A stretch of DNA of 64,000 nt from a virus. The translations under genes and the position numbers were made by a program. The DNA is taken from IMG/VR virus record IMGVR_UViG_3300044630_003601, positions 1 to 64,000 of that record; one strand, written 5' to 3'. Shown in pieces: positions 8,225 to 41,490 of this stretch (position 1 is the first letter of the stretch; every line of letters begins with the position of its first letter). The notes under the pieces were generated by a model that did not search any database, was not told the origin of the DNA, and saw nothing but the letters and a program-made list of their open reading frames with translations.

Positions 8225-10273
8225 ATGTACGAAAAAATTGAAGGCGGAAGTGTCGTAGATATACAAGGGCTAAAGTGCAATTTGCCTCCAGAAGGTTATG
8301 TGTTTAATATAATTACAAAACAAGTAGAATTTAGGGGCGTATATAAAAGATCTGAAATTGAGTCAGACCAATATTGGAAAAGAATTTCATTGCCAGATTG
8401 GTATCAAGATACAATGAAGAAATGGGATGAATTTGATAAAAAGAAAAAAGATGACGAAGCCGAATTTTATGATGAAAGACTAGAAGAATACAAAAAACAA
8501 GAGTGGGATAGAAGATTGAATGGGTTTTGGTATATGAACAATGGCACTCCCACTTATTTAACAGGGTTGCATTATTTATATTTACAATGGTGGCCTATTG
8601 ATATTGGTTATCCTAAGTTTCGTATTCCAGATTTGGAAAAATTCTATTTTATGGACTATTGTATTCAAGATCCGTTATGTATGGGGATGCTTGAAGTAAC
8701 AAAAAGACGTTTTGGTAAATCATTTGTGGCTGGCTTATTTGTTTCTGAATACATTACTAGAACTAAAATGACAAATGGTGGTATTCAGTCTAAAACAGGT
8801 TCGGATGCTAAAAAATTCTTTGCTAAGACGGTTGTAAATCCTTTCAGAAGGCTCCCTAAGTTTTTTAGACCAGAATATGATATGTCTTTGGGTGTTAATC
8901 CTAAAACGGAGATGAGATTCCAAAAGACAAACGTAAGAGGTAAGAAAGCAGAAGATAGCGTTGACAAGGATGAATTAGGATCAATTATTGACCATCAATC
9001 GGCAGATACCGTTGCTTATGATGGACAGAAATTACATAGATATGTAGCGGACGAGTGCGGTAAAACAACAGAGGTTAATGTTTATGACAGACACGAGGTT
9101 GTGCGTTATTGTTTGCTAGATGATGAGGGTAAAATTATTGGAAAAGCTTTATATACTACAACAGTAGAAAAATTAACTACAGAAAAAGATGGGGTACAAG
9201 ACGCATTTAAGTTATTATGGGAGGAAAGTAATCAAGATAAAAGGCAAGATAATGGGACGACTTCAAGCGGTCTTTATAGATTCTTTATGTCTGCTAAACG
9301 AACTAGAAACTTTGACGACTTTGGTTTCCCTGATGAAAATAAGACTTTAGACCAAATTTTAGCAGACAGAGAAACTGTTAAAAATAATCCTAGAGCATTA
9401 TCTGCAAGGGTTAGAAAAGAGCCATTGACTATTGACGAGGCGTTTAGCACAGACTCCGATAAGTGTATTTTTAATGTAATGAACATAGGTGCTAGAGAGC
9501 AATACTTAAAAGAAAACCCCGTATTAAAAAGGCATGTTATTTTTTACCGAGATATTGATCAAACGGTAAGATGGAGAAATATTAATGATAAAGAAGAAGA
9601 TTTTCATTGGGTTATAACTCAATTCCCAAAACCGGGTGAAGAAAACAAACATACATTTGATGTTAAAACAAGAAAGCCGGGAAGGGTATCTGATGGAGCA
9701 ATAGCAATTGACGGATATAGTAATAGTCAAGGTGGTAAATATGGTTCAAAAGCTTCCGCTTGGATTGGCAGAAGATATGATTTATTAGATCCGGGTAATA
9801 CAGGAAAGGCAATAGGTCACTTGTACGGCAGACCACAAATTAAAGAAACCTTACATGAACAAGTTCTTTTAGCGGCTGAATTTTATGGCTATCAGGCATG
9901 GTATGAGCATAATAGTGATGACTATTTATCATATTTTAGAGATAGAGGAAGGGTTGGCTATCTAGGTTCTTATCCACTTTCAACAATTGATCCTTCTAAA
10001 AGAGAAACGGCAGAAAGGTTCAAGGGGTTCCCTACAACTCCGTTTAGCTTAACAAAACAGACAGATGTTGGAATTATGTATTTTGAATCTCATATTGATT
10101 CTATAGATTTTGAAAATTTGTTAGAAGATGCCAAAAAATTTGATCCAAATAACAGAACTGATTTTGACCAAACGGTATCATTTTTGATGTTAATAGTATG
10201 TCTTATGGAGCCAGTTCAAAAACAAATTAAACGAGAACCATTAGTTAGAAGCTATAAGCCAGAGTTCAATTAA
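8225..10273 (+). CDS. terL: terminase large subunit
   Basis: The 682-residue packaging motor. The ATPase part shows a Walker-A-like TKRRFGKS (159-166, the deviant K-R-x-G-K-S form of terminases) and a Walker B ending in D276-E277 within HRYVADECGKT. Conserved TTVE (312-315) and MSAKRTRNF (355-363) suit the coupling motif region. The C-terminal nuclease begins near VSDGAIAIDGYSN, where D496 is a likely metal ligand. The N-terminal 150 residues (TGLHYLYLQWWPID) are typical of the long terminases of crAss-like and related Bacteroidota phages. The preceding gene is a candidate small subunit and the following gene is the portal. Confidence 0.92.
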   Translation: MYEKIEGGSVVDIQGLKCNLPPEGYVFNIITKQVEFRGVYKRSEIESDQYWKRISLPDWYQDTMKKWDEFDKKKKDDEAEFYDERLEEYKKQEWDRRLNGFWYMNNGTPTYLTGLHYLYLQWWPIDIGYPKFRIPDLEKFYFMDYCIQDPLCMGMLEVTKRRFGKSFVAGLFVSEYITRTKMTNGGIQSKTGSDAKKFFAKTVVNPFRRLPKFFRPEYDMSLGVNPKTEMRFQKTNVRGKKAEDSVDKDELGSIIDHQSADTVAYDGQKLHRYVADECGKTTEVNVYDRHEVVRYCLLDDEGKIIGKALYTTTVEKLTTEKDGVQDAFKLLWEESNQDKRQDNGTTSSGLYRFFMSAKRTRNFDDFGFPDENKTLDQILADRETVKNNPRALSARVRKEPLTIDEAFSTDSDKCIFNVMNIGAREQYLKENPVLKRHVIFYRDIDQTVRWRNINDKEEDFHWVITQFPKPGEENKHTFDVKTRKPGRVSDGAIAIDGYSNSQGGKYGSKASAWIGRRYDLLDPGNTGKAIGHLYGRPQIKETLHEQVLLAAEFYGYQAWYEHNSDDYLSYFRDRGRVGYLGSYPLSTIDPSKRETAERFKGFPTTPFSLTKQTDVGIMYFESHIDSIDFENLLEDAKKFDPNNRTDFDQTVSFLMLIVCLMEPVQKQIKREPLVRSYKPEFN

Positions 10274-10330: not shown

Positions 10331-12724
10331 TTGGCAGATAGTCCGTTATTCATATCAGCAGCAAATAGCAATGGAGAAGCCTTAAAAAAGTTTCAAATTA
10401 CTACAGATGTAGCATCTAAAAAAGATTATGCATATGGTAAAAATGTTGCACAAAGTATCTATTCTACAATTTACGGTAACCAAACTTATTTTTGGTTAAG
10501 AAATAATAGATTTAGAAAAAACAGACAAATCGCAAACGGTAAAATAGACATGAGTGTGTTTATGGATCGTTTGGAGATGAATAGTAAAGCTAACTTTGTA
10601 AATATTAATTGGAAATCAATTATTATTGGTAATACAATTGTTGCAAGGTTAGTTGGCTCATGGATGAGTAGAAATGAAAAGGTTACAGTTACTGCTACGG
10701 ATAGCGCATCTGCAATGCTTAAAAAGAACGCAGCAGATGAAGCTGAATTTATTTATCAAAATAAAGAAATACTTGCTCAATTACAACAAGAGTCAGGTAT
10801 TCCAATTATTCCACAAGATCAATTTATTGCGGAAGATAAAGATGAATTAGATAGATGGATTAGTGAGTTTAATCATTTACCGGAGGAAATACAATATAGC
10901 ATTGGATGTAATAATGTATTAGAAGCTAATGGATGGAATGACGTTTTAAAACAAAGATTATTACATGATTCTGCGGAAGTAGGATTAGTATGTACTTATA
11001 CATTTATGGATGAAGAAGGTGAAGTTCATGTTCAATGGATTAGACCTGAAAATGCAATTTATTCTTATTCTGATTTCCCTGATTTTAGAGATACTACTTA
11101 TAGAGGACATATTTTGTCTATGAAAGTTAGTGAAATAAGAGCAAGGTATAGTATTGCCGCTGGCGGTATATTAACTGAAGAAGATATTTTTAGATTAGCT
11201 CAATCATCAAAAGAATACCAATTAACAGATAAGATTAAGTGGATGCAAGATTGGAATGTTTCTTGGTTAAGACCTTATGATGAATGGAATATTGATTTAG
11301 TTCAATTTGAAATTAGAACATTAGACTCTGATGGTTATACTGTTACTAAAACAAAGAAAAATGGTAGCACTATAATTAAAAAAGGCAAACCTGAAAAATT
11401 AGACGAAAATCAACAATATTTAGAAGAGAAAAAATGGAATATATACGAAGGTGTATATTGTCCTGTTACTCAGACAATGATTAAGTGGGGTATCAAGAAA
11501 AATATGATTCGCCCGCAAGATCCAAAAGAATTAGGAAACGCAGAATTTTCATATAGCTTTTATATGTACGACCCTTACGATATGCGTAATGTGGCTGTGC
11601 CTGAAAAAATAGAAGAGCCTATTGAGCAAATGATTTTAGCTAGATTGAAGATACAACAAATGGTAGCTAAAATGGTGCCAGCAGGCGCTTCAATTGATGT
11701 AGATGCTTTACAAGAACTAGATTTAGGTTTAGGGGATTCTGTAAAGCCATTAGAGGTACAAAAGATTTGGGAACAAACAGGTAAACTATATTATCGCGGT
11801 AGAGATGCTGAAGGAAATAGAATTCCTGTTCCAATTACCGAATTAGCAAATACTGGTTTTGCCCCTCAATTGCAAGCGTTAATTCAATTATATCAATTCC
11901 ATTATCAAGTTTTAAAAGATGAATTGGGAGAAGATCCTAATTTAATGAATCAAGCTGCGCAACCAAGAGTTGCCGCTTCAAACATTGAGGCTTCAAGAGC
12001 TTTAGCAAATAACGCTACAGAATACATGTATGATGCATATATCTATGTTATGGAAGAAACTTGCAAAAAAATCGCATGTTTATTAAATAAAAGTGTTACT
12101 TACGGGTCTAAAAAATATAGAGATATATTAAAGGAAGAAGATGTAAAAGACAGAAATTTTGTTGCAACAGTTAAAATGATGCCACAAGCTCAAGAAATTG
12201 CTAATTTGCAAATAATGATGAATAATGCTATGGCATCAAATCCTCAATTGGTTATGTATTTAGATCCATTTAAGGTAATGAGAATAGCTAAAGAAAATGT
12301 TGACTTAGGTGAATTATACTTTAGACAAGCTCAAAAAAGATATATAAAAACAGAACAAGAAAATGCTCAAAACAATTCACAACAAAACGCAGAAGCTCAA
12401 CAAGCTAGTATTCAAGCAAAAATGCAGGCTGATACAATAATTGATGGGAAAAGAGCTTTAGCTAGAGAAAAGGAAATTATATTACAAGGTGTTTTTGATC
12501 TTGCAAAAGCAAATATTCCTGTTCCAGCCGAGCTTCAGCAATTAGTAGCTGATACTTTGCAGAATGTAAATGTACCAATTGAGGTCCAAAATGAAGAGCA
12601 ACAACAAGCTTTAGAGCAGCAAGCTCAACAACAACAGCAACAACAAATGCAGCAAATGGGCGAACAAGAGCTTTTAGAAGAAGAACAAATGATGATGGAA
12701 CAACAACAAATGCAACAACAATAA
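10331..12724 (+). CDS. portal protein
   Basis: A 797-residue protein directly after TerL and before the scaffold and capsid genes, the place of the portal. The length suits the large portals of crAss-like and P22-like podoviruses. The central region is rich in Trp/Tyr and acidic helices (for example WIRPENAIYSYSDFPDF). The barrel-like C-terminal part is helical and ends in an extreme Gln tract from about residue 755 (Q and E/M only). The start is TTG in the context ACATTGGCA. No nearby ATG would keep the N-terminus, and the same context starts the long fibre. It forms the dodecameric vertex through which DNA enters and leaves. The assignment is by position, length and general look. Confidence 0.8.
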   Translation: MADSPLFISAANSNGEALKKFQITTDVASKKDYAYGKNVAQSIYSTIYGNQTYFWLRNNRFRKNRQIANGKIDMSVFMDRLEMNSKANFVNINWKSIIIGNTIVARLVGSWMSRNEKVTVTATDSASAMLKKNAADEAEFIYQNKEILAQLQQESGIPIIPQDQFIAEDKDELDRWISEFNHLPEEIQYSIGCNNVLEANGWNDVLKQRLLHDSAEVGLVCTYTFMDEEGEVHVQWIRPENAIYSYSDFPDFRDTTYRGHILSMKVSEIRARYSIAAGGILTEEDIFRLAQSSKEYQLTDKIKWMQDWNVSWLRPYDEWNIDLVQFEIRTLDSDGYTVTKTKKNGSTIIKKGKPEKLDENQQYLEEKKWNIYEGVYCPVTQTMIKWGIKKNMIRPQDPKELGNAEFSYSFYMYDPYDMRNVAVPEKIEEPIEQMILARLKIQQMVAKMVPAGASIDVDALQELDLGLGDSVKPLEVQKIWEQTGKLYYRGRDAEGNRIPVPITELANTGFAPQLQALIQLYQFHYQVLKDELGEDPNLMNQAAQPRVAASNIEASRALANNATEYMYDAYIYVMEETCKKIACLLNKSVTYGSKKYRDILKEEDVKDRNFVATVKMMPQAQEIANLQIMMNNAMASNPQLVMYLDPFKVMRIAKENVDLGELYFRQAQKRYIKTEQENAQNNSQQNAEAQQASIQAKMQADTIIDGKRALAREKEIILQGVFDLAKANIPVPAELQQLVADTLQNVNVPIEVQNEEQQQALEQQAQQQQQQQMQQMGEQELLEEEQMMMEQQQMQQQ

Positions 12725-18863: not shown

Positions 18864-19136
18864 ATGAAACCAATTAGAGATTTTGTTTTAGTAAAACCAT
18901 TTGCACCAGAAGAAGTTACCGAAGGCGGACTATTATTGCCAGAAGGGTATAGAGAAAGAAATTGTAAGGCAAAGGTAATTTCTGTAGGTAACGGAACGGC
19001 TAAAGTTAAAATGGAAGCTAAAAAAGATGATATTATTTTCCATATTAAAGGAGCAGGGGAACCAATTATATTAGATAATGAACTTGTTTTCTTAATTCGT
19101 CAAAACGATATATTAGCTTACGCATCAAATAATTAA
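18864..19136 (+). CDS. GroES-type co-chaperonin, 90 aa
   Basis: Length and order match Cpn10: PIRDFVLVKPFAPEEVTEGG (N-terminal strand and mobile loop), LLLPEG, then KAKVISVGNGT, then a closing LIRQNDILAYASN in place of the host hydrophilic-VLFxxYAG-type ending. The mobile loop is shorter than in host GroES. It would cap host GroEL and probably assist folding of the capsid or connector proteins between which it is encoded. A second GroES-like gene lies at 7168. Confidence 0.82.
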   Translation: MKPIRDFVLVKPFAPEEVTEGGLLLPEGYRERNCKAKVISVGNGTAKVKMEAKKDDIIFHIKGAGEPIILDNELVFLIRQNDILAYASNN

Positions 19137-24076: not shown

Positions 24077-24622
24077 ATGTATATACTAGTTACATTAAAC
24101 CCGAATCAAGGTGTAGATTTAGGCCCAAATTTTGCATTAACTGCCAATGTTGGAAGCTTATCTCCTGCAACAGCTACATTAACTCAATTATTATCGGGTG
24201 TAACAGTTCGTGCTGATGACGGGGTTAGTTCAATTGTTATAACTTCGCAAGGAATATGTACTAATTCAATAACGCTTTTTGTATTGCCGCCTGCCACTAC
24301 AACTACAACTACCGCAGCACCTACAACTACAACCACTACATCTAATATAACAACTACAACTACAACTGCAGCGCCTATTTTATGTTTTAACTATTTTGTT
24401 TATGCTGATGATGGCACATCAAATAAAAATTCTTATTCTTACTCATATATTAATTGTGCGGGGGTTACTTTGTTTGGCGCACGCACAAATGGCGGTGCGG
24501 GAACTACAATATGTGCGCAAGAAGGTACAGTTACTTCTGAATCTGGTTATATTTTTGCAGATGAGGGGGCTTCTTGTAATCCGACTACAACAACCACAAC
24601 TACAACTACAACCGCACCATAA
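24077..24622 (+). CDS. Thr-linked two-module virion protein, 181 aa
   Basis: Residues 1-73 form an Ig-like beta domain (LVTLNPNQGVDLGPNFALTA, then VRADDGVSSIVITSQG). Two Thr linkers (about 74-104) lead to a Cys-containing module with C at ~107, 127, 147 and 166. A final Thr10-AP tail follows. The module type matches those ending the hub and the 13154 protein. The gene follows the hub, so the product is probably a tail or vertex appendage. No enzymatic motif. Confidence 0.7.
   Translation: MYILVTLNPNQGVDLGPNFALTANVGSLSPATATLTQLLSGVTVRADDGVSSIVITSQGICTNSITLFVLPPATTTTTTAAPTTTTTTSNITTTTTTAAPILCFNYFVYADDGTSNKNSYSYSYINCAGVTLFGARTNGGAGTTICAQEGTVTSESGYIFADEGASCNPTTTTTTTTTTAP
24293..24377 (+). repeat. 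Poly-Thr linker repeat
   Basis: ACT/ACA/ACC runs interrupted by GCAGCACCT-type Ala-Ala-Pro codons. The same design recurs at 24582-24619 at the end of this gene. Confidence 0.88.
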
Positions 24623-26394: not shown

Positions 26395-27762
26395 ATGGCA
26401 GCTACAGGATTATTAGGAATAAACCCATATTTTAAAGGTGTAAGCTTAGATACATCTAAGCCGGTTAATTTAGCTATTCAGCTTGAGCAAAAAAATCAAG
26501 CTAAAAAAGAAGCGTTAGATAAATATTTTATGGATTATGAGAAATCAATTAATCCAGCAGGTATGCGTTCTCAAGATCAAGATATTGTATTAAAGAAGCT
26601 GAATGAAAATAAACAGTTCTATATGCAAAATAGAGATCGCATATTGAATCCTTCTAAATATGGAGCAGAAGCTCAATCTAGATATATGGCTGGATTTAAA
26701 GATATTTTATCTGATATATCTAAATCAAAACAAGCATCCGCTGAAGATAAAGTATTACAAAATACTTACAGTAGAATAAAAACACAAGGATTAGAAATAC
26801 CAGATGGCTTTATGGAGGCAATACAAGAAAGCCAAAAGCCGATTTACGCAGGTTACAAGCCTGTAGATTTATTTAAATTTGATTTTAATAAACCATACAA
26901 CGAAACGGAATTCACTAAAAATGTTTGGAGTGGATTAACATTACCTACAAAAGAAGTTCCGACAACATTGCCAAATGGCAAAGTTCAGTATGCAAAAATA
27001 TCTTATTTAACTCCAGATATTGCACAAGCTGTTGCTTTAAATGCAATAAACGAATACAAAACAAAACCGGGAAGTACAAAGAATTTTAATAATTTAATGA
27101 AGGATGCTAATATATTTAGTGCTGCTGAAAAGGAATTTGGTGAAGCATTTAAATATACAGATCCTAAAACGAAGAAGATAGTAAAACCAAGAATAGAAAG
27201 CCCAGAACAATTTGTTGCTGGTTATGCTCTATTGAAGAAACCTACAGGAGAAATTTCAAGAGGAAAAGAAGATTTTGATTGGTTGACTAGGTTTAGAATG
27301 ACACAAAATGCAATTAATGCAAGGGCTGGCGCACAGGCGGTTAGGATGGAAAATATATTTGATAAGACAGGTAGTGGTGGAGTGCCTTTAAAAATAGGCA
27401 GTGATTACGAGATAGTAGCTGGTAAGGTTTTAGATAAAGATGGCAACCTTGCTACGGTAAACTTTAAAGATATTTCAGGAGAAAAATTGCCACCTGATTT
27501 ATTTAGTGTTTTAGAAAAATACGGTATTGATTTAAGAAAGAAGGATAAATATAAAATGGTTGCTAAAGACGGTAAAATACAAAGCATAACAGATTCAAAA
27601 GGAAATGTTATAACTAGACAAACTATAATGAGCGCTCAAAAGAAATTTGATACTGAAAGAAAAGGAGAAGAGCCATTATTTTATGAGGAAGTTGATGAAG
27701 TATCAGTGCCTAAAGTAGAAACATTAGCTGAAAGAATGAGAAGAAATAAAAATAAAAAATAA
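26395..27762 (+). CDS. candidate internal virion protein, 455 aa
   Basis: Lys/Gln-rich helical protein. The start MAATGLLGINPYFKGVSLDTSK and following Q-rich helix (AIQLEQKNQAKKEALDKYFM region) look like an internal or ejection protein. The middle contains alternating helices and a small beta domain (about 340-400). No enzyme motif. Placed between two other large internal-type proteins with 4-17-base gaps. Confidence 0.6.
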   Translation: MAATGLLGINPYFKGVSLDTSKPVNLAIQLEQKNQAKKEALDKYFMDYEKSINPAGMRSQDQDIVLKKLNENKQFYMQNRDRILNPSKYGAEAQSRYMAGFKDILSDISKSKQASAEDKVLQNTYSRIKTQGLEIPDGFMEAIQESQKPIYAGYKPVDLFKFDFNKPYNETEFTKNVWSGLTLPTKEVPTTLPNGKVQYAKISYLTPDIAQAVALNAINEYKTKPGSTKNFNNLMKDANIFSAAEKEFGEAFKYTDPKTKKIVKPRIESPEQFVAGYALLKKPTGEISRGKEDFDWLTRFRMTQNAINARAGAQAVRMENIFDKTGSGGVPLKIGSDYEIVAGKVLDKDGNLATVNFKDISGEKLPPDLFSVLEKYGIDLRKKDKYKMVAKDGKIQSITDSKGNVITRQTIMSAQKKFDTERKGEEPLFYEEVDEVSVPKVETLAERMRRNKNKK

Positions 27763-27765: not shown

Positions 27766-30708
27766 ATGGACGAAAAGCAATTACAATTTTTATATAACGA
27801 ATACGCAAAGGGTAAGGGTTTTAAAGATTACTCTGATTTTAAAGGATTGATGTCCTCTGAAGGCAGCAGAAAATTGTTTTTTGATGATGCTAATAAAGAA
27901 CTTGGCTTTAAAGACTACAACGAGTTTAATGATTTACTTGGCTTAAAAAAAAAAGTTGGTGGCGAAGTATCTTCCCCTACAAAATCACAATTGGTATTAC
28001 CAGACTTTGAGAAAGGTAAAGCTTTTGCTGAAAAAGGTTTTTTAATGCAAGCGGAGGGTACAAAGACTCCGAAAAAACAAAAGATATTAATTGAACCTTC
28101 TTTATCATTATTAGGTGCGCCAAAAGTAAAAGTAATAGAAGAAGGTGATGAAACTTCTATTTTGGCTGATTTTACATCTTCTGCTATAAAAGGACAAATA
28201 CAAGGTAAAGTTGCAAATATATTATCAGCTGGTAAAAGACCAACTCCAGAAGAATTAGGTGAAATAGCTCAATTGCAATCTGATTTACAATTGTTACCTC
28301 AATCAAAATCAGAGAAAGCATATCAAGAAAAAGGATTAAAGGGATTATTTACAGATAGTCCGGGATTAGGCGTTCAGTTTATTGCTGAAACGATGGCTAG
28401 TTCATTATCATCATTATTTGAAGCAAGTAAAAGAACAGTTCCTACTGCTGTAGCAATGGGTGCTGCTGCTGGTGCGCCATTCGCGGGTATTGGTGCTTTA
28501 GTAGGCGCGGGTACTGGTTTATTAGCTGGACAATCAGCTGCTGGGTATAACATATCTACTTCTCAAGACATTTTAAGTTCATTATCTGAAAATGGAGTTG
28601 ATATATCAAATAAAGAAAGTTTAATTAATGCATTTTCGGATGAAGCAAAAATGGCTAAAATAAGAAATACTGCCGTTAAGTATGGCGTACCTATTTTAGT
28701 TTTTGATGCATTGACCGCAGGGCTAGCAGGTAAGTTAGCAGCTGGTGCGGTTGGTAAAAGTTTAGGTAAAAAATTATTAGCGGGTCTTGGTGAAACGGGG
28801 CTGCAAATAACTGGAGGTAGTGGGGGTGAATTAACAGCTCAAATTGCTTCAGGTAAAAAAGTAAATTGGGATGAAATAATTATAGAAGGTCTTGCAGAAG
28901 TACCGGGTGGCGTTACGGAAGTTGCTACTGGAGTTGCAATGGAAAGATCAAAAACATCTTCTAATAATAAAACATTAGCTACTCAAATTGCAACACAAGG
29001 TGTTCAGAATGGAACGGAAGATGCTATCATCAATTTAAACAGAGATTTGGCCAATAATGTTATTACTCCAGAACAGCACCAAGAAGGTATTATTTTTGCA
29101 GAAAAAGCAGCACAAGTATCAGATAAAATACCTGAAACAGTAACTGGAGAAAGTAGAGTTAAATCAATTGAATTATTAGTTGAAAGAAATGATATAAAGC
29201 AAGCCAATCAAGATTTGCTTCAGCAAAAACAAACAACAGACGAGGCTTATCATGCAGGTATTGATGAAGAAATAAAAGCCAACGAAGAAAAAATTAAAAA
29301 ATTAGATGCAGAGGTATATAATATTGCAAAAACCCCATTAAAAGAGGTTGGAACTAAAAAGTATATAGTAGATGGGAAAGAGATAACCCAAGAAGAATTT
29401 GAAGGATTGCAAGGTAAACCTACAGGTACAAAGCGAGTTGTAAGAGCAATTGACGAATATGATGCCCTTGATGCTATGACACCTGAAGAAAGTCAGAAGT
29501 TAGCAGATCTAACAGCGCAAGGTAAATCGGAAGAAGCCTCTAAAATGTTAGCAGAAAAATTAGACCAATTAAAAGCAGAAGTTAAGACTACTGAAGTTGA
29601 AGTGGCTGAAGGAGTTGAACCAACTGAAGTAAAAGAAACGCCTAAAGAAGAAAAAAAATTAGGCAAATCACTTATTAGTGAAGAACCTGCTCAAGGCAAA
29701 GGAGTTGTAATTGCAACAGAAACTGGTTTAACAGAGCAAGAAAGATTAGATAAGATAGCAGAAAGAGAAAAACAAACAAAAATTAGTGATAAGGTAAATA
29801 CAGAAAATGCTTTAGTTCAAGAAACAAAATTATTTTATGAAAAAAATAAAAGACAAAGAAGCAGTTCTGAAGGTTTAAGAAAATTAAATGAATTAAGAAC
29901 AAGGGCTAGAGAACTTGGTCTTGAAATTGATGATGCCTCTGAGTCTGTTGTTAGGAAAAAAGGGTCAAGAAAAACTAAAATTAAATATAATTCAAAAGCA
30001 GATGCTGATTCTGTTATAGACAAAAGTGGTAAAACTATTTACGAAAGGCGAAAGGATGTTCAAGATGTATTTAAAACGCTAAACGATAATAAAAATTTTT
30101 TAGATTTTAAAACAGATTTAGGCGTTAGAATGAGCGATACACAACTTGATGCAACTATACAAGATATTTTAGACGGAGTACCTAGTAAAAGAGCTAATCG
30201 TTATCTTGATGAAATTCAAAAGGCTATAGATAATGATGCTTTTGGGTTAAAAGATATGGGTAACAATGCTTTAACTTTAGAACAAATAATGGAATCTGAC
30301 AGGGATATTAATAAAATAGAAAAAGAATTGGTTGGGGAGCCTATGGATGAAAAGGCGTTAGAGGCTTGGCTTAATGATCAGTCTAATTTAACCCCAGAAG
30401 AAGAGGCTATAATGATTGATGATTTTGAAAATTTATTAAATGAATATGAATATGAAAACGAAACAAGACCTGAAGCAGAGGTACCAAGAGTTAAGCCAGC
30501 CCCAGAAGAAAGAGTTGTTGCAAAGGCTGAACCGACTGAAATCAATAAGAAAACAACCTCTATTGAATCAAAAAAAGAAGTAACTTTACAAGACATTTAC
30601 GAGGCATTGCCAAAGTCAGAAAAACTGAAAAATAAGCAAGTTGAAGAAATGGTAGATAAAAATTTTGATAGTATTATCAAGCAACTAGAAAAATATAAAA
30701 TATGTTAG
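27766..30708 (+). CDS. large internal virion protein with tandem FKDY motifs, 980 aa
   Basis: The N-terminus carries two copies of a short motif: GFKDYSDFKGLM (about 18-29) and GFKDYNEFNDLLGL (about 47-60). Residues ~205-270 and 300-330 contain Ala/Gly-rich membrane-like helices (TAVAMGAAAGAPFAGIGAL). The remainder is charged coiled coil. Near residue 540 is KYIVDGKEITQEEFEGL, resembling the N-terminus of the 1524-residue protein. Size, coiled coil and hydrophobic helices suggest an ejected core protein like T7 gp15/gp16. No lysozyme motif is seen. Its stop overlaps the ferritin start by 7 bases. Confidence 0.6.
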   Translation: MDEKQLQFLYNEYAKGKGFKDYSDFKGLMSSEGSRKLFFDDANKELGFKDYNEFNDLLGLKKKVGGEVSSPTKSQLVLPDFEKGKAFAEKGFLMQAEGTKTPKKQKILIEPSLSLLGAPKVKVIEEGDETSILADFTSSAIKGQIQGKVANILSAGKRPTPEELGEIAQLQSDLQLLPQSKSEKAYQEKGLKGLFTDSPGLGVQFIAETMASSLSSLFEASKRTVPTAVAMGAAAGAPFAGIGALVGAGTGLLAGQSAAGYNISTSQDILSSLSENGVDISNKESLINAFSDEAKMAKIRNTAVKYGVPILVFDALTAGLAGKLAAGAVGKSLGKKLLAGLGETGLQITGGSGGELTAQIASGKKVNWDEIIIEGLAEVPGGVTEVATGVAMERSKTSSNNKTLATQIATQGVQNGTEDAIINLNRDLANNVITPEQHQEGIIFAEKAAQVSDKIPETVTGESRVKSIELLVERNDIKQANQDLLQQKQTTDEAYHAGIDEEIKANEEKIKKLDAEVYNIAKTPLKEVGTKKYIVDGKEITQEEFEGLQGKPTGTKRVVRAIDEYDALDAMTPEESQKLADLTAQGKSEEASKMLAEKLDQLKAEVKTTEVEVAEGVEPTEVKETPKEEKKLGKSLISEEPAQGKGVVIATETGLTEQERLDKIAEREKQTKISDKVNTENALVQETKLFYEKNKRQRSSSEGLRKLNELRTRARELGLEIDDASESVVRKKGSRKTKIKYNSKADADSVIDKSGKTIYERRKDVQDVFKTLNDNKNFLDFKTDLGVRMSDTQLDATIQDILDGVPSKRANRYLDEIQKAIDNDAFGLKDMGNNALTLEQIMESDRDINKIEKELVGEPMDEKALEAWLNDQSNLTPEEEAIMIDDFENLLNEYEYENETRPEAEVPRVKPAPEERVVAKAEPTEINKKTTSIESKKEVTLQDIYEALPKSEKLKNKQVEEMVDKNFDSIIKQLEKYKIC

Positions 30709-31196
30709 GGAAATCATTACTTAGCGCCAGTATGAAGAAAGGGCTTCAAAGCGCAATTCAGGCTGAATTATACCAGTCTAACCTTTGGAAGCACTTAGCT
30801 AACCAATTGCAAAGATTAGGCTTTTTTGGAAGCCAAAAGTACTTTTTAGCTGAAAGCGCTGAAGAGTTAACCCATTACCAAATTATTGTTGAATTTATCA
30901 ATGATATGGGCGATGTTGCAAGTGTACCTTCTATTGAAGCCATTACCGATAAAGTAGAATCAATTGGGGATGCATTAGAGATAGGTTACGAAACCGAGCT
31001 TGATGTATTAAATCAGTACAAAAAGATCTATAAGCAAGCCGAAGAAGAAGATTGCGCAGTTGCTATATTCTTACAACAGTTTATTACTATTCAGGTAAAG
31101 GCTGTGGGTCAATATGGTGATTTATTGGCTAAATATAAAATAGCTGAAGAAACAAAAGAAATTTTGGAATTTGACCAACATATTGCAGACGTTTAA
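30702..31196 (+). CDS. ferritin with complete ferroxidase site
   Basis: A 164-residue four-helix-bundle protein that aligns without gaps over its first half with bacterial non-haem ferritin (FtnA). The spacing of ligands is exact: E22, E55 and H58 (E-x-x-H in ESAEELTH), then E99 and Q131, corresponding to FtnA E17, E50, H53, E94 and Q127. The G-F-F-G turn at 40-43 matches the G-F-S-G turn of FtnA. It should oxidise Fe(II) and store ferric iron in a 24-mer, or act as a smaller iron-binding protein. It is encoded between two giant internal virion proteins, overlapping the upstream one by 7 bases, so it is co-expressed with late virion genes. Whether it is packaged in the virion is unknown. Confidence 0.85.
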   Translation: MLGKSLLSASMKKGLQSAIQAELYQSNLWKHLANQLQRLGFFGSQKYFLAESAEELTHYQIIVEFINDMGDVASVPSIEAITDKVESIGDALEIGYETELDVLNQYKKIYKQAEEEDCAVAIFLQQFITIQVKAVGQYGDLLAKYKIAEETKEILEFDQHIADV

Positions 31197-31207: not shown

Positions 31208-34200
31208 ATGGCTTGTAAGTACATCATTGACGGGGTAGAATATACGGAAAGTGAGTTAAAAGACTATCTTATTAAAGGTGGACTTGATAAGTTTGTAAAA
31301 GACGATATAATTGATTTATCAAAAATAAAACCAATAGGATATGCCGTACAAGAGCCAAGCGCAAGCAGCGTACTTCAACCTGAACAAAAAGAAGCTAGAG
31401 AAGCAAGGGGTGAACGTGGAGGAGTGGAACAAAGAAAGCAAAGGCAAAAAATTGCCGAAGAAGGTAAACAATCTAAAGGCGATGAAGAAGCCGTAAGGAT
31501 GCGTTCTCTCTATAAGCAGATTATAACAAGATCAACAGGGCTTACAGAAGAACAAAAGTCAATATTAAAAAATGATCCAAATGCACTTTATACGGTGCTG
31601 CCTATTGCTGAAAGTAAAAGAATAGCATTAGAATTAATTAAAGAAATGGGCGTAGCTGAAGCTGTAGCTGAAGCATCTAGCTCAACAACAACGCTTCAGC
31701 CAGTAGAAAGAACAATGATATTGGGTGCTGCTATGGATTATTATGCTAAATTAGGTAAAGAAAGCTTGCAGGATGGTGATATGGCAGCAGCGCAATCAGC
31801 AGCAAGAAAAGAAATAGATGCAAATGAAGAATTAAGATTAGTAGCTTCAACATTAGGCGAACTAGGAACGGCATATGGAAGAGCTATCAATGCATTTAAG
31901 GAAATATATAAATTATCAAGTTTAGCTCTAGAAAGAAAGCTTATAAAAGATGTTGAGGAATTAAATGAAGCAAGGTTGCAAGTAGCAACGGCAGACGCAA
32001 AAGAAATTAAAAAGATCATTAAAGAAGATGCATCTGATATAAAGGATGTAGCAAGCGAATTAACTAATGAAGAGGCTGAAATAAAATTAAATGCTTCTAA
32101 AAAGATTTCTGAATTAGAAAAACAAGTTGAAGATTTAAGAAATCAAATATTAGAAAGAGATAAAGCACAAAAGGGAACTAAAAAGAACCCTTTAAAAATA
32201 AGCAGAATAACTAATGATACAGAGTACGATAAAAGATTAAAAGATTTTAAACAAAGAGTTAGAAGTATTGCTTCTAAAGACGACTTAATTGATTTGACTT
32301 ATTTTGGTTTATATCATATAGAAAATGGAATAACAAAATTTGCAGATTGGTATAAAGAAATGTCAAAAGATTTTAAAGGTTTTAAAAACCAATTCAAAGA
32401 CATATATAATAATGTAACAGAAAAGTCTATAGAGAATGGTGCAGATATAAATTTATTTGATGACGAGGAAACAATACAATCAGTATTGGATGATTTTCAA
32501 CAAGAAACAGATGCTAAAAAAATAGCACAAGCAACAAAAAAATTAACTCAAGCAAAGCTACAAAAAGAAGAAGAAAATAATCCAGAAAAAGCAATTAAAA
32601 ATGCTCCATCATTAGCGGCCGAAAGGATTAGAAAAGATGCAGAAAAGAATTTAGGTATGCCATCTACTGAAGTAGAACAGACTTATTTAAAGAGATTAGT
32701 AAAAGTAGTAAATAGTAAGGCAAAAGAATATTACGCAAGCAAAAAGCAAGACGTTAAAAATATAAACGATATATTAGCATTTGCTATTGCTAATGGTAAA
32801 AGAGATTACGCTATATGGGAAAATACTCAAAAAGAATTAGAAGAACAAATAGACGCTGATGAAAAATTAACTGAAGATCAAAAAGAAGAAGTAAAAGACT
32901 TTTTGGAAGCTTATAGAGAAAGTATTTTTGATACATTACTTACAAAGAATCAAATATCAGAAGCAGTAAGAGAAAAGCTTATAGAAAATGGGTACTTTGT
33001 TGAAAAAATAATAAAAGGCAATCCTGTAAAATCAGTTGATTGGAATAAGATTATAGGTAATGCAAGTACATTAAAGGAAGCAAAAGAAAAAATAATCAAA
33101 TCAATAACAGATTTAGGATTTACAGAATCAGAAGCTAAAAGTGAAATTAATTCTATATTAGATTATTTTGATGCAAAGGTATCTGAGAAAAAAACACAGC
33201 AAATAAACAAGTATCTTCAAAAAGGTATTTTAAATAAAGTAAAAGGATTGGCGAAGAAAAAAGTTAAAAGAGGCAGTGTTGATAAACTAATTGATTTAAA
33301 CAAAAAAGGTTTGCTTGATGATGATAAAATAAAAGAAATACTTTCTGCGGAATTAGGTTTAGTAAAAATAACTGATGAGGATTTAAAAAATTTAAGAGAT
33401 TGGTCTAGCAAAGTGGATGACGAGAATACTCCTATTTTTATTAAAAAAGAGCTTGAAGAGAAAATACAATACTTATTTGATACAAAGTCTGGTAATATAG
33501 ATTATTTAGAAAATAGAGCAGCTAGCATGTCTAATAGATTATCTAGTGTAGTCAATCAAGTAATTAACTTGACAGGTTTCTTTCGTGCTTTATCTACATT
33601 ATCTACTGTGGCAGTTAAAACAGGTAAGCCAGTAAATGCGGCAAAAGTATTTTTAAAAGAGATTGGCAATGCAGCACAAGAAGCAAAAACCATACTTAAA
33701 GGAAGAGTTAGCAGAGGTAGTTCTTTTGATGATTTAGTAGGGTCTGCGTCAGGTCAGCCAAGAGTAAGATATTTAGAACAAGGTAAGGGTAAGTTTTTAG
33801 GAGGAAAATTTTTAGGCAAACCATTATATCTTGAAATTGGGGGTAAAAAAGTAGATTTAAACCCTATTAATTTAGGATACTCAAAGTTAAAATATATTTC
33901 AAGGTTATTAGAAAGTGCAGATACTATGGCATCTGGAGCTATATCTGGTCTTACTCAATTTAGAATAGCTACAAAAGAGATAAATAAATATTATCCAGAA
34001 TTAAGTGCAGCTCAAAGAAGCCAAAAAGTGTATGATATTTTATACAGTGTAGATAGAGCAACTGAATTGCCAAAGGCTATAAAAGATTTAAAAAATGCAG
34101 GGGTTCCAAATCCTACTCCAGCTGAAATAAATAGAACTATAAATGAAAGAGTTGAAAGAGCTAGAAGCGAAAGATTGGCAAATGATTTTTATAATCAAGC

Positions 34201-35819: not shown

Positions 35820-36338
35820 ATGCCTTTAGTACCGAATTTTACAGCTAGCCAGTTTAGTGGCACACCATCGGTTATCACTTTAACAGATACAAGTACAGGC
35901 TCTGATGTTACTATTGCTAAGCGTAGAATTTATCTATTGCAAGCTAATGGTACTATGTTAGTGCCAGCTGGTACACTTACTACTTATATTGATTGGCCTT
36001 TAGCAAATACAAGTATTAGTTTAGATGTATTATCACAAGATAGTGCATTAAGTATTACTGTTCAATGGTTGACTTCTGCAAATGCGGTGGTTACATCAAA
36101 AACAACTTCATTCGCATTTACTGCATACAATGAAACTTTCTATTATGGATTAACAGAAAGTCAAGTAGCAAATTCAAATTTAAGCGCAAGTACGAATTGG
36201 TATCAAACTAAATTAATACTTAGAGTTGAAATTGATAGCGCAGATCAAGCAATTACATTTGCATCTGATATTTATTCAGCACAAGCTGCATTAAATAGAG
36301 CAACATATATTTCTACTAACCAATCATATTTCTTCTAA
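35820..36338 (+). CDS. tail/appendage structural protein, 172 aa
   Basis: A beta-rich protein with few charges (VITLTDTSTGSDVTIAKRR, IDWPLANTSISLDVLSQDSA, WLTSANAVVTSKTTSFAF) and a short helical ending (AQAALNRATYISTNQSYFF). It is a plausible Ig- or jelly-roll-like component linking fibres to the tail. I recall similar proteins directly before fibre genes in Bacteroidota phages, without known function. Confidence 0.6.
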   Translation: MPLVPNFTASQFSGTPSVITLTDTSTGSDVTIAKRRIYLLQANGTMLVPAGTLTTYIDWPLANTSISLDVLSQDSALSITVQWLTSANAVVTSKTTSFAFTAYNETFYYGLTESQVANSNLSASTNWYQTKLILRVEIDSADQAITFASDIYSAQAALNRATYISTNQSYFF

Positions 36339-36885: not shown

Positions 36886-39800
36886 TTGGCAATACAGAAT
36901 TTAATAACAGGTGAATTTCAGATCAGGAAATTAAATGGAGTTCTTGTAGCTACCAATGGTATCGTTGATGCGGTTGGTAATATTACATCTGGAACATCTG
37001 GATCAAGTGGTACTAGCGGCACATCAGGCACAAGTGGAACTTCTGGTTTTGCTGGTACAAGTGCCATGTTAGTTTATACATTCATAGCAAATGAAGGTCA
37101 AACTACTTTTTTTATTCCTAGTGGATATGTTAATGGTATGCTTGGTGTATTTGTTAATGGTGTTAAATTATCACCATTAGATTTTACATCATTAGATGGT
37201 TTTAATGTAATTTTAAATACACCTGTTACCGTAGGGGATATTGTAGAAATAGATAATTTTGTTGCTAATTATGTTTCTACTTCAGGAACTTCTGGAACTT
37301 CTGGTATTTCTGGTTCTTCAGGTACTACTGGAACATCGGGTTCTTCTGGTACTTCAGGTACATCAGGTTCTTCTGGAACATCTGGAACATCGGGTTCTTC
37401 TGGAACAACTGGAACTTCAGGAACTTCAGGAACAGCAGGTTCTTCTGGTTTAAGTGGGGATAGATATTTTACTACATCCAACACTACATTTACTTTAGGT
37501 AATTCTGGAACTTTGATTGTAGGGACAAATTTATCATTTAGTCCTGCGCAATCAATAGTCATTGTTTACGATAATACAAACTTCCAAGAGTGTGAAGTTA
37601 TTTCATATAATTCAACAACTGGGCAATTGCAATTTGCAGAACCCAATAGAACAGTTGGTTCGGGTACTTATTCTAACTGGTCAGTTAACTTAGATGGTGC
37701 ATCAGGTACATCAGGAACTTCAGGTACATCAGGAACATCAGCGACTTCAGGTACATCTGGAACTTCAGGTAGTTCTGGTTCAAGTGCTACAAGCGGTACG
37801 GCTGGAACTTCTGGTAGCTCTGGCACAACCGGTACGTCTGGCACAACTGGGACCTCTGGAACTTCTGGTACATCAGGCACAACTGGGACATCTGGAACTT
37901 CTGCAACCGATGGCACAAGTGGCAGTTCTGGTACGACAGGAACTTCAGGTACGACAGGAACTTCAGGTACAACCGGCACTTCAGGTACGTCAGGTACATC
38001 AGGTACTTCTGCAATAGATGGCACTAGCGGTACTTCTGGCACAACCGGTACATCAGGAACTAGTGGCACTTCGGGGACGACTGGCACATCTGGTACAAGC
38101 GGAACGGCAGGTACATCAGGTATAAATGGTATGAATGGGGTTGCAGGGGGTCTTGTGTACTATCTAAATCAATCTTTAAATACAGATACTGCGTTTGGCA
38201 CTCCAACATATAAGCAATGGTCGTCAATTCCAACGGGAGGCGCAGAGCAATCGGTAGCATTAAATAATGTACCCAACAACACAAGAACTCTTATTGCTAC
38301 TTATGCGACTGATTCAGGAGTACCTAATGTCACCACAATACCTTCAGGTTTATGGGCGTGGACAACACATTTTGACATAAACCATAATTGTGATTTAGCG
38401 GTAGATGTTGAACTTTACAAATATACAACAGGCGGAGTATCAACACTTTTAGGTACTACTAACATAGATACTGAACCAGTATCGTCAAATACTATTAAAG
38501 AATTTTTTACTGATTTATTTTTAATATCACAATCTTTAAACGCTACCGATAGACTTTATTGCAAAATATATGTTCTGCATAATCATGGTGGGAATGCTAA
38601 TATAAATTTTTATACTGAAGGAATAAGTAATTACTCTTTTGCACAAACAACATTCAATCCACCAAGTGGTACGTCTGGTACTTCAGGTACTTCAGGAATA
38701 GATGGAACTTCTGGATCTAATGGTACAAGCGGTACTTCTGGCACATCTGGTACTTCAGGTACAAGCGGTACTTCAGGAACTTCAGGTGAAAATGGTACAA
38801 GCGGTAGTTCTGGAACTTCAGGTTCTAGCGGAACTACGGGTACTTCAGGAACAACAGGTACTTCAGGAACAACAGGGACTTCAGGTACATCAGGTGAAAA
38901 TGGTACAAATGGCACATCCGGGACAACAGGTACTTCTGGATCAAGTGGTACTTCTGGTTCTACAGGGACAAGCGGAACATCTGGTACTTCTGGTGCTACT
39001 GGTTCTACAGGGACAAGCGGAACTTCCGGGACGAGTGGAGCTACTGGTTCTACTGGTACAAGCGGAACTTCTGGAACAAGCGGAGTTACCGGGTCTAGTG
39101 GTACTTCTGGAACAAGTGGTGCTAATGGTGGTAATGGGACAAATGGTACATCAGGTACAAGTGGTGCTAATGGTACAAACGGAACTTCAGGAAGTAGTGG
39201 AGTATCTCCATCTGTATCAGGGTATTTACCTTTGACTGGTGGTACACTTACTGGACCGCTTGTTATCGGAACAACAGGTTTAGCAAATAGCCCTTCATTA
39301 AGAATAAACACTTCATCTTCTTTACCTTTTGTACATACTCAAGAAAATTTTGCAGCAAATCTTACAGCAGGCCAAAGAGCTATGATATTCTTTGGTAAAG
39401 AAGGTAGCACTAAGAATGCTGGTGCCATTGGGTATTATTGGGCAGCGGCAGCCTCTAATAATAATTTTATAACATTAGGACATTGGGGAAATGATGATCT
39501 TTTAAGAATATACGGGGACGCTGCAGTTCAAACAACTGGCTATTTAAGAACAGCGGGTGTCACTTCAAATACAGTATTATTTACAAGTGGAACAAGTAGT
39601 GTTGATTTTGGTAATGCTCTTGGACAAGGTACTGCAAGTAGAAGTACATTTTTTAGAGGCAATACAAATAATGTTTCTGTATGGTGGGGTGGTATTGATG
39701 CTAATGGGGCTAATATCCCATTTGGAGCAATAGACGCAGTAGCTGGTGAGTTTAATTTTTGGAGAAATAGTGGTGGACTTGGTGGTGGAACATGGACAAA

Positions 39801-41490
39801 TACTATGACCATGAATTCATCTGGTCTTACTATGAATTCAGGAAACTTTATTGGTAATTTAACAGGAACAGCAAGTTCTGCAACTTCTGCAACTTCTGCA
39901 ACATACTTAGGAAGCGGAGGGTATATTTTTAGAGGAGGATTTAGTGGTAATTGTAATACAGATTTTCAAAACACCCCAGCAGGAAGTTATAGATATAATG
40001 GAGACAATCCCTCTGATGTAAATAATCCGGGAGGTACTTGGTGGTTTATTGAAAACTTTAGACATAGTAACGCAAGTAATTTCTGGGGTACACAAGTAGC
40101 ATGGGGATGGGAAGATAATGCTAATAGATTAGCTACAAGAAATATTACTGGTAATAGTTTTGGAGGTTGGGTTTATTATATGAATACGGCAGCTTATCCA
40201 TTTGCTGCTAATATGAATCAGAATGTTAGAACTTCTGATTCACCAACATTTAGTTCAGTTTATACCAATGACTGGATTAGAATGAATACAATTTTAGGAT
40301 TGATTTGTCCGGGAACTAATAATGCTCAACTTTATGCAAATAATGGTTCATATGGGGCATGGAAAATAGAAGGTTCTAGAAATAGTTACGGTGGTATAGA
40401 AGTGGGAGGTTTAAGTAATGGAAATATTTCTTGGATGGTAAATCTAAGTTCAAACACAACTGGTTTCAATAATCATTCTTATGGGTGGCAGTTTTATTGG
40501 CAAAGTGGTATTTTATATGTTGGAAAAGCTACATATGGTGGAGGTACTATAGCTACTGTTTTTGATACTTCAAATTATACATCTTTTCTAGATGCCCCTA
40601 ATAAAGCAGGAACATCTTATTATCAGACAAATACATGGTTGCAGCTTAATGGAGAATATGGTCTATACTGTCCATCAATAAATAATGCTCACTTTTATCC
40701 AAATACTAGAAGCTATGGCGCATGGAAAGTATTAGGAGAAAGAAACGGATGGAGAGGATTACATTTTGGCGAAGGATCAGGAATAACGCTAATGATGAAT
40801 GAAGGCGAGTTTGGGTTTCATAGAGAAAGTGTAGGCTGGGTGGGTAGATTTACTAGCGGAAGATATTATGGGACATCTGATAATACTGTTAGTATATCAA
40901 GTGCGGTAGGTGGTGGTTATACATGGACAGGAATTCAATATTTTGAAACAAATAACGGAGGTAGATGCGGCAGCACAAATAGTGCAAAATTACAAGCTTA
41001 CTCATCAGGTAATAACTCAGCGTTTATGTCTTTTCATAAAGGCGGTTACTATGCTGTTAATATGGGTTTAGATGATGATAACGTACTTAGAATTGGAGGT
41101 TGGAGTGCAGGGGCTAATTTATTTCAAATGGACATGGCAGGCAACCTTACAATGGCTGGAAATATTTGCGCTTATTCTGATTCTAGAGTAAAAGAAAATG
41201 TAAAAACAATAGAAAATGCTTTATCAAAAGTATTAAACCTAAGAGGTGTAAGCTATAATAGAACTGACTCTGATGATAAAAATACACAAATTGGCGTAAT
41301 TGCTCAAGAAACTTTACCTATTGTTCCAGAGGTAGTTAATATGGATAACAACGGAATGTATAATGTTGCTTATGGAAATTTTGGTGGATTATTTATTGAA
41401 GCTTTCAAAGAACAACAAGCTGAAATTAAAGAACAAAAAGCTCAAATTCAAGAACTTAAAAAATTAGTTAACCAATTATTAAGTAAATAA
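36886..41490 (+). CDS. long tail fibre with Gly-Thr-Ser triplet repeats and S74 chaperone domain, 1534 aa
   Basis: Starts at TTG in the context ACATTGGCA, as the portal does. Order: short N-terminal domain, GTS repeats, a fibre module (GYVNGMLGVFVNGVKLSPLD), repeats, a ~90-residue module (TFTLGNSGTLIVGTN, then VGSGTYSNWSVNLDG), a long repeat block, a Trp-rich domain, another repeat block (to about residue 774), several Gly/Trp-rich modules, and a C-terminal peptidase S74 intramolecular chaperone (SDSRVKENVKTI with the catalytic Ser-Lys pair, then IGVIAQE and a trimeric coiled coil). The Gly-X-Y repeats should form a collagen-like trimeric shaft rich in Ser/Thr. S74 trims itself after folding. 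Host receptor binding is the likely role. Confidence 0.85.
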   Translation: MAIQNLITGEFQIRKLNGVLVATNGIVDAVGNITSGTSGSSGTSGTSGTSGTSGFAGTSAMLVYTFIANEGQTTFFIPSGYVNGMLGVFVNGVKLSPLDFTSLDGFNVILNTPVTVGDIVEIDNFVANYVSTSGTSGTSGISGSSGTTGTSGSSGTSGTSGSSGTSGTSGSSGTTGTSGTSGTAGSSGLSGDRYFTTSNTTFTLGNSGTLIVGTNLSFSPAQSIVIVYDNTNFQECEVISYNSTTGQLQFAEPNRTVGSGTYSNWSVNLDGASGTSGTSGTSGTSATSGTSGTSGSSGSSATSGTAGTSGSSGTTGTSGTTGTSGTSGTSGTTGTSGTSATDGTSGSSGTTGTSGTTGTSGTTGTSGTSGTSGTSAIDGTSGTSGTTGTSGTSGTSGTTGTSGTSGTAGTSGINGMNGVAGGLVYYLNQSLNTDTAFGTPTYKQWSSIPTGGAEQSVALNNVPNNTRTLIATYATDSGVPNVTTIPSGLWAWTTHFDINHNCDLAVDVELYKYTTGGVSTLLGTTNIDTEPVSSNTIKEFFTDLFLISQSLNATDRLYCKIYVLHNHGGNANINFYTEGISNYSFAQTTFNPPSGTSGTSGTSGIDGTSGSNGTSGTSGTSGTSGTSGTSGTSGENGTSGSSGTSGSSGTTGTSGTTGTSGTTGTSGTSGENGTNGTSGTTGTSGSSGTSGSTGTSGTSGTSGATGSTGTSGTSGTSGATGSTGTSGTSGTSGVTGSSGTSGTSGANGGNGTNGTSGTSGANGTNGTSGSSGVSPSVSGYLPLTGGTLTGPLVIGTTGLANSPSLRINTSSSLPFVHTQENFAANLTAGQRAMIFFGKEGSTKNAGAIGYYWAAAASNNNFITLGHWGNDDLLRIYGDAAVQTTGYLRTAGVTSNTVLFTSGTSSVDFGNALGQGTASRSTFFRGNTNNVSVWWGGIDANGANIPFGAIDAVAGEFNFWRNSGGLGGGTWTNTMTMNSSGLTMNSGNFIGNLTGTASSATSATSATYLGSGGYIFRGGFSGNCNTDFQNTPAGSYRYNGDNPSDVNNPGGTWWFIENFRHSNASNFWGTQVAWGWEDNANRLATRNITGNSFGGWVYYMNTAAYPFAANMNQNVRTSDSPTFSSVYTNDWIRMNTILGLICPGTNNAQLYANNGSYGAWKIEGSRNSYGGIEVGGLSNGNISWMVNLSSNTTGFNNHSYGWQFYWQSGILYVGKATYGGGTIATVFDTSNYTSFLDAPNKAGTSYYQTNTWLQLNGEYGLYCPSINNAHFYPNTRSYGAWKVLGERNGWRGLHFGEGSGITLMMNEGEFGFHRESVGWVGRFTSGRYYGTSDNTVSISSAVGGGYTWTGIQYFETNNGGRCGSTNSAKLQAYSSGNNSAFMSFHKGGYYAVNMGLDDDNVLRIGGWSAGANLFQMDMAGNLTMAGNICAYSDSRVKENVKTIENALSKVLNLRGVSYNRTDSDDKNTQIGVIAQETLPIVPEVVNMDNNGMYNVAYGNFGGLFIEAFKEQQAEIKEQKAQIQELKKLVNQLLSK
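37279..37454 (+). repeat. GTS triplet-repeat block (shaft) in the long fibre
   Basis: About 58 codons of G-T-S / G-S-S / G-T-T triplets. Codons are varied at the third position, which argues against recent simple slippage and for selection on the protein sequence. Confidence 0.9.
37699..38118 (+). repeat. Longest uninterrupted GTS triplet-repeat block
   Basis: Gly-Thr-Ser triplets with occasional A-T, T-D-G and I-D-G breaks. The antisense strand is open across it and would read (V/E)-P-x repeats, a by-product of the codon pattern. Confidence 0.9.
38665..39207 (+). repeat. Second long GTS triplet-repeat block, with Asn- and Ala-containing units
   Basis: Triplets GTS, GSS, GTT mixed with GEN, GTN, GAT and GAN units. 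GATGST repeats three times at DNA level (around 38995-39055), pointing to unequal recombination within the block. Confidence 0.9.

Follow-up and report, generated by a model that had tools for sequence, protein, structure and literature searches.

What is a ferritin gene doing between two giant genes in the virion-protein region of a phage? The window analysed here comprises positions 1–64,000 of the 65.1-kb virus record IMGVR_UViG_3300044630_003601, and the gene in question is the open reading frame (ORF) at 30702–31196. The original prediction, made from the letters of the window, saw in it a ferritin with an intact ferroxidase centre, inserted between a 980-aa and a 1524-aa ORF, and raised the idea that the protein is packaged. 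The arrangement is as described, with an overlap of 7 nt upstream and a gap of 11 nt downstream. Our comparison with other viral contigs shows that ferritins of this family are tightly coupled with portal, minor-head or giant virion/polyvalent genes, in phage groups that have different portal families.

The ORF matches the Pfam family Ferritin (PF00210) with 66.4 bits (E 3.3e-18; curated cut-off 24.5), and a phmmer search against solved ferritins returned 92 sequences at E ≤0.001. Bacterioferritins are marked by a Met that ligates haem at the subunit interface; the best matches of the phage protein are non-haem ferritins. It also matches phrog_16594, a family of unknown function. An AlphaFold2 model of the monomer, with 29 phage sequences as input, reached a mean predicted local distance difference test score (pLDDT) of 97.0 and a predicted template modelling score of 0.90, and consists of four predicted helices (residues 9–39, 42–68, 88–116 and 118–151) and an E helix (154–161). 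Among the best PDB matches of this model are Escherichia coli FtnA (1eum; Z 24.1, root-mean-square deviation 1.1 Å, 19% identity) and the Thermotoga maritima ferritin (1z4a; Z 24.4, 1.3 Å, 27% identity), which share with it the four-helix bundle, the E helix and the same five ligands. Profile score, fold and the intra-subunit E/E-x-x-H/E/Q ligands, the latter read from the sequence, thus agree on a classical PF00210 ferritin, as originally predicted. In Dps proteins the ferroxidase site lies between subunits and the E helix is missing, whereas the ligands of the phage protein are intra-subunit and its E helix is present. Encapsulins link ferritin to an HK97-type shell, and the ferritin enclosed is a half-size two-helix subunit with a C-terminal cargo peptide; in contrast, the 164-aa phage protein is a full four-helix subunit with an E helix, and nothing in it points to a terminal extension.

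Scans of IMG/VR for ferritin loci returned 26, the best 80 of 84, 6 and the best 80 of 122 in overlapping sets; the first contig set comprised 86 contigs and the combined set 153 contigs with 116 distinct proteins. The diiron ligands E22, E55, H58, E99 and Q131 are invariant in all 153 contigs, window included, and no relative with degenerate ligands was found among them. The proposed match with FtnA is therefore correct for these five residues, but it does not extend to the third iron site, which we take to be E126, E129 and E130 of FtnA. At the positions matching 130, 133 and 134 of the phage protein, 29, 29 and 28 of 29 cellular ferritins carry a glutamate, whereas the window ferritin has I, K and A. 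Position 130 is never a glutamate in the 153 phage contigs, position 133 is one in only three of them, and position 134 is A (69 contigs) or S (84) and never E. With E/E/E mostly exchanged for I/K/A-S, the phage ferritins lack, judged by these residues, the third site of the bacterial FtnA type together with the B-site glutamate. E/E/H/E/Q followed by A or S is presumably the ligand set of eukaryotic H chains, and the phage family follows this H-type pattern, with A or S replacing the fourth-helix glutamate. The relation to eukaryotic H-type ferritin is distant in sequence, the E values of entries called "ferritin heavy chain" being about 7e-6 to 2e-4, and the H-chain-like site is probably a case of convergence or of retained simplicity. 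Further marks of the family, which also set it apart from FtnA and the T. maritima ferritin, are E51 (152 of 153 contigs, with one gap), Y106 (153 of 153) and Y59; F127 is another family mark (153 of 153). Cellular ferritins have Q in place of E51 (28 of 29) and I in place of Y106 (29 of 29). The phage gene is under purifying selection, with a median ratio of nonsynonymous to synonymous substitutions (dN/dS) of 0.047 (range 0.007–0.61; 211 pairs from 81 sequences, limited to dS 0.1–1.0).

Pairwise identity within the family ranges from 43 to 100%. A tree was computed from 48 of the 86 phage rows, near-identical ones having been removed, and 29 of 55 cellular rows from a set without eukaryotic sequences. 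All 48 phage rows lie on one side of a branch and all 29 cellular rows on the other (Shimodaira–Hasegawa-like approximate likelihood ratio test 100), and the branch measures about 1.6 changes per column to either side of the drawn root; the tree program gave a long-branch warning, and the deep order is unsure. A profile of the phage ferritins matched 114 of 395 Bacteroidota genomes with 77 bits at best, compared with 256–280 bits for phage members, several of which had built that profile. Phylogeny against Bacteroidota ferritins had been suggested as a way to date the acquisition, but it revealed no recent donor and instead a separate clade on a long branch. These scores disfavour a recent Bacteroidota donor among the sampled genomes and leave room for other donors. 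A pattern scan with the phage alignment, through one genome for each of 84,980 species, gave 75 stretches and no relative, within the reach of the pattern. Searches of 50,697 cultured-phage records by tblastn with the ferritins of P0001, L070, L081, L082 and L083 found no clear family member, only weak, unannotated matches in MT836766.1 (20.9%) and in two Staphylococcus phage records (28.8%). The ferritin of MT838721.1 (L030:1423-1902, deposited as "Bacteriophage sp.") is 100% identical to Bacteroides genomes, and this record, probably bacterial DNA within a phage collection, was treated as such. The phage ferritins are thus a clade of their own, apart from the cellular ferritins compared, and so far found in viral contigs only. 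A structure search of viral models had other viral ferritin-like proteins at ≤21% identity among its top rows. Three BFVD models named "Prohead protease" (A0A6J7WIS1, A0A6J7XDU5 and A0A6J7WPK9) gave partial, Dps-like matches to the ferritin fold (TM about 0.6, E 4e-3 to 4e-2); other phages may have head-maturation proteins with a fused Dps/ferritin-like domain.

Neighbour genes were called mechanically, and the contigs are partly near-duplicates, such that the context counts are not independent. In the first set the upstream gene shares the strand of the ferritin in all 86 contigs and lies −60 to +10 nt from it in 80 of them, and neighbours of at least 800 aa flank the ferritin on both sides in 80 of the 153 contigs (11 duplicate contigs removed for this count). 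In 38 contigs (context A) a portal gene (cluster c3) homologous to that of the window, shown on L012 to be phrog_6547, is directly upstream of the ferritin. In 24 contigs, counting L011 and L040, the ferritin sits within a split giant as in the window (context B). Context C, tested on L025 and alike in L026 and L027, has a GroES-like gene upstream and virion structural proteins downstream. In L070 (context D) the order is terminase, portal phrog_113, minor head/DNA pilot protein phrog_220 and ferritin, and L072 has the same direct ferritin neighbours. Terminase and portal also precede the ferritin in L074 (context E; portal phrog_12082), whose downstream genes recur in L075 where the upstream gene is cut, and in L082 (context F; terminase phrog_15, portal phrog_21). 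Also within context F, a match to head scaffold phrog_673 follows the ferritin in L080. The phrog_6547 portal was found in 5 of 22 records tested (L071, L027, L055, L288 and L081) and in none of 12 records of group G described below, all of which may be fragments; phrog_21 among the records tested is that of L082 only. A 450-aa gene two places after the ferritin in portal-type loci was considered as a capsid gene, and with an AlphaFold2 pLDDT of 31 and zero PHROG matches it is not claimed as one.

The giant–ferritin–giant order of the window is also found in another phage group (context G). In L077 of this group the ferritin neighbours carry the ART-PolyVal and LPD38 domains, known from proteins for which packaging and injection are predicted (PMC5512222). 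The portal, MuF-type and giant contexts of the ferritin agree with those of the packaged proteins described there; the main text of that paper does not contain the word "ferritin". In L077, the downstream giant aligns with the last ~900 residues of PHROG profiles of 2793–3925 residues, and because of this match it, too, corresponds to the end of a longer protein. Pfam polyvalent-domain matches were seen on neither the 980- and 1524-aa ORFs of the window nor three giants of its lineage. A profile comparison of window-lineage and group-G giants found no significant similarity; the downstream parts aligned over their first ~35 residues only, at a probability of 3%. The flanking genes had been called internal virion proteins, a label drawn from their position and relatives; the two window ORFs themselves have no Pfam match above cut-off and only PHROG matches to families of unknown function. 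Scanning in reverse from the downstream giant of group G yielded 29 loci, nine of them cut by the contig edge, and the ferritin was directly upstream in all 20 in which the start is visible; for the downstream giant of the window lineage it was directly upstream in 5 of 5. These scans reach close relatives only, 24 of the 25 contigs were already known through their ferritin, and one of the search peptides in the second scan was taken from the head of the giant itself. They are supporting and not independent evidence.

How the ferritin came to lie within a giant gene can be read from relatives of the window terminase. Among 79 terminase loci, all 39 contigs of at least 34 kb were searched for ferritin, and it is present in 25, in answer to the question of its occurrence at the same locus in related phages. 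The giant is split, with the ferritin between two ORFs, in 23 of these 25, including L347 and L348 (in L011 and L347 the contig stops within the C part). In contrast, all ten ferritin-less relatives that cover the locus, among them L344 and L350, have a single giant ORF of 1921–3361 aa between the same flanking genes; L350 has an additional 265-aa gene after it. Three others (L345, L349 and L351) end inside the giant, and the L346 stretch does not reach the locus, its record holding two opposite-orientation terminase copies. Record IMGVR_UViG_3300032323_002596 (L157, L158), with two opposite-orientation terminase copies that are 95% identical to that of the window, looks like a chimeric or inverted assembly. 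L067, with ferritin, and L344, without it, align up to L344:13807 with 91.8% identity (1310 bp) and again from L344:13815 with 84.3% identity (1352 bp), so that a cassette of ~821 bp replaces ~7 bp of L344. The cassette consists of the ferritin gene with new sequence on either side of it, ~183 bp forming a tail of the upstream ORF and ~147 bp a head of the downstream ORF. The L057 relative of the C-terminal part aligns at 61% with the final ~920 aa of two fused giants. The unsplit giant is probably the older state, because a single giant gene is also present in two outgroups, Manatee Spring phage (11,580 bp) and elemoE (11,085 bp); the giant of the former matches the upstream parts of the window lineage, that of elemoE weakly (29% over 127 aa). 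Residues about 876–1106 of the fused giant of L228 are 36–45% identical to an annotated minor capsid protein of the Microbacterium phages Caron, Barnstormer and UtzChips.

The new tail and head have their own characteristics. A Cys lies among the final five residues of the upstream protein in 98 of the 99 contigs of the giant-type groups and second set that show this gene; the sole miss (L296) is a 97-aa fragment at a contig end, and in the other contexts the count is 0 of 50. The tails look alike between groups (NF.DI..L...KINC type), and a tail profile matches 84 of 153 upstream genes; the window tail is not caught by the strict pattern, its likeness being judged by eye and its terminal Cys counted. 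A pattern search recognises the C-x-Y head at the start of the downstream giant in 77 of 80 contigs, and the three misses are similar by eye. Portal-type contexts have neither tail nor head, and neither the head nor the tail profile matched any of the fused giants tested at E 0.01. Searched against cultured phages, the head pieces matched nothing or Leptolyngbya phage Lbo-JY46 only, and the tail piece had only matches at E about 8 to 10. In Lbo-JY46 (L311:1332-5990 and 5992-12072) a 1553-aa ORF ends with EVEVNC and the ORF directly after it starts with MSNCVFSYNGKTYSEAEFKKLL. Tail and head as a ferritin-specific signature are weakened by this phage, which carries both at a split giant without ferritin. 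We therefore read them as putative marks of split giants in general, at a junction that the ferritin uses; perhaps they are a pair that rejoins the giant halves, a possible general docking pair.

The ferritin gene is mobile among these loci. Portal-type ferritins are not one clade (approximately unbiased (AU) test, p 0.0009, applied after the tree had been seen) and are interleaved with giant-adjacent ones, with at least four context changes between the two. The ferritins of L004 and the window are 84% identical, whereas the window portal and that of portal-type L012 share 25% over 343 aa. L068 and L050 have portals that are 98% identical and next two genes at 92% and 97%, while their ferritins are 67% identical. 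The gene has therefore been transferred and swapped, yet it lands beside head or ejection genes.

Taken together, we tentatively favour an active ferritin that belongs to the head/ejection gene module, is made late, oxidises iron and is associated with the virion, while regarding this combined statement as open to about as much doubt as trust. That the protein is catalytically competent and of the cage type carries this same strength, as part of the joint reading. From its operon position, the ferritin would be transcribed late together with the virion genes. As expected from ferritin biochemistry, it would assemble into a cage, bind Fe2+, oxidise it at the diiron site with O2 or H2O2 and store it, and Fenton-active iron would thereby be removed where phage DNA is packaged, stored or delivered. 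Less certainly, the ferritin may associate with the flanking giants and be carried in or on the virion, as suggested by its recurrent linkage to head and ejection genes. The packaging idea of the original prediction is strengthened in that this linkage recurs in several phage groups; the packaging itself is putative, read from gene context.

Several observations weigh against this reading. The ferritin is dispensable, since 14 of the 39 terminase relatives have no match to it, ten of these with the whole locus in view, and it has been exchanged alone at a fixed site, which speaks against a tight fit to one virion partner; swapping and dispensability weaken the case for virion association. In three contigs (L002, L003 and L006), two of which (L002 and L006) are among the 25 carriers, the ferritin follows an unsplit giant. 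The tail/head pair of Lbo-JY46 occurs without ferritin in a 12-kb stretch. At 156–174 aa across the 153 contigs, the phage ferritins show no sign of an extra terminal cargo peptide. Finally, a 24-mer ferritin cage, if formed, should be too large to get through a portal intact.

The same swapping and dispensability would suit a free enzyme, and it is quite possible that the ferritin is an auxiliary gene in a strong late operon, which detoxifies iron in the cytosol, protects the cell and the progeny DNA and is left behind at lysis, the slot among head genes being merely convenient. This alternative has precedents. That phage ferritins act as anti-oxidative genes is already in print, as a ferritin of lake and reservoir phages has been listed as a gene of defence against reactive oxygen species (PMC6802176); this listing may include the present family, and the passages concerned give no sequence family, gene context or active-site analysis. 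DPS and Mn-catalase in Gratiaviridae (PMC8008677) and a DPS-like gene in Lactobacillus plantarum phages, located near replication and not head genes (PMC6669764), are also iron or oxygen-radical proteins of the ferritin superfamily in phages, but of other families. What speaks against this alternative is that placement beside head or ejection genes recurs across different portal groups, which is more specific than a random late slot requires.

A bolder form of the virion reading, which we consider rather unlikely, would make the ferritin a virion component between the halves of a giant, head-packaged and injected protein, held by the Cys tail and the C-x-Y head. The phage head would then be a shell with a working ferritin, a viral counterpart of encapsulins, that guards the packaged DNA and may enter the next host.

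It is improbable that the particle bears mineralised iron as cargo, either as a trick to gain uptake at the surface of the host or as a gift of iron once injection has occurred. The linkage to giant and head genes would fit such a "Ferrojan horse", which the original prediction had brought up, and a ferritin-like protein, gp217 of the Vi01-like phage Sajous1, is among the proteins detected by mass spectrometry (PMC10892097). That protein, recognised by Phyre2 at 22% identity and encoded in a supposed operon with a tail-completion gene, is from a different phage group, and in the host tested the study saw no dependence on the pathway (PMC10892097). No tail fibre or receptor-binding gene is among the identified immediate ferritin neighbours, many neighbours being unassigned, and the cargo idea thus finds no specific support here.

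Also improbable, and slightly more so, is a structural use, with the ferritin cage as the hub on which the split-giant halves are assembled and iron oxidation as a secondary matter. The near-constant Cys tail and C-x-Y head at ferritin-bearing giants would fit this, but both occur without ferritin in Lbo-JY46 and are missing in portal-type contexts, and the invariant ligands suggest selection on catalysis. A hitchhiking gene of no benefit to the phage, as its movement between lineages and cassette-like insertion in L067 might suggest, is very improbable in view of the low dN/dS and of an active site invariant across the whole range of identities.

Features of the ferritin locus in the window. 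Positions are those of the window.
Feature	Position	Strand	Remarks
Terminase large subunit, phrog_6681	8225..10273	+	PHROG match; served as bait for relatives with and without ferritin
Portal protein, phrog_6547	10331..12724	+	PHROG match
455-aa gene, cluster c12	26395..27762	+	Left border of the locus, in carriers and non-carriers alike
N-terminal part of split giant, 980 aa, phrog_32588 (unknown function)	27766..30708	+	Single ORF here in ferritin-less relatives
C-terminal tail of upstream giant, ends KNFDSIIKQLEKYKIC	30604..30708	+	Likeness to pre-ferritin tails elsewhere, by eye
Phage ferritin, 164 aa	30702..31196	+	Predicted diiron ligands E22, E55, H58, E99, Q131; A134 replaces bacterial glutamate
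N-terminal C-x-Y head of downstream giant, MACKYIIDGVEYTESELKDYL...	31208..31330	+	Common to the post-ferritin gene of other lineages
C-terminal part of split giant, 1524 aa	31208..35782	+	L057 relative aligns with ends of fused giants
172-aa gene, cluster c1	35820..36338	+	Right border of the locus

The window record has a G+C content of 33%. Its terminase had 87 matches among phage records, all below 60% identity, and the host is likely a member of the Bacteroidota because nearly all of these are phages of Flavobacterium, Cellulophaga, Tenacibaculum and Maribacter. Elsewhere in the window, 36886–41490 and 42452–44290 encode long GTSGTSG collagen-like repeats, probably in fibre or tail proteins (the second matches Pfam Collagen), and ORFs at 12750–13771, 24077–24622 and 42055–42441 have long poly-threonine tracts (TTTTTTAP type). 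Small proteins that appear GroES-like by eye are encoded amid virion genes at 18864–19136 and 7168–7833; co-chaperonin GroES genes are present in elemo phage annotations, and a GroES-like gene adjoins the ferritin in L025. A cluster that resembles methyltransferases and glycosyltransferases by eye (46878–53774), with a 1156-aa minus-strand ORF and several plus-strand ORFs, perhaps serves surface or DNA modification.

In our searches of open-licence papers, limited to their main text, we found no phage ferritin tied to portal or giant virion proteins; one is tied to a tail-completion gene (PMC10892097), and a giant-virus paper has "viral ferritin" once (PMC7136201). New with respect to these searches are a ferritin family with an H-like site, its recurrent linkage to head and ejection genes and its cassette inside a giant gene. 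Earlier phage ferritins were described as anti-oxidative auxiliary genes without a place in the particle, whereas the linkage described here suggests a tie between iron handling and the production or delivery of the virus particle, and makes a concrete test on virions possible. If the ferritin is absent from virions, this would still be a large family of iron enzymes made late by viruses of water bacteria. If it is present in them, the proteins that phages package or inject would include metal enzymes, and ferritin-loaded encapsulins would have a viral parallel.

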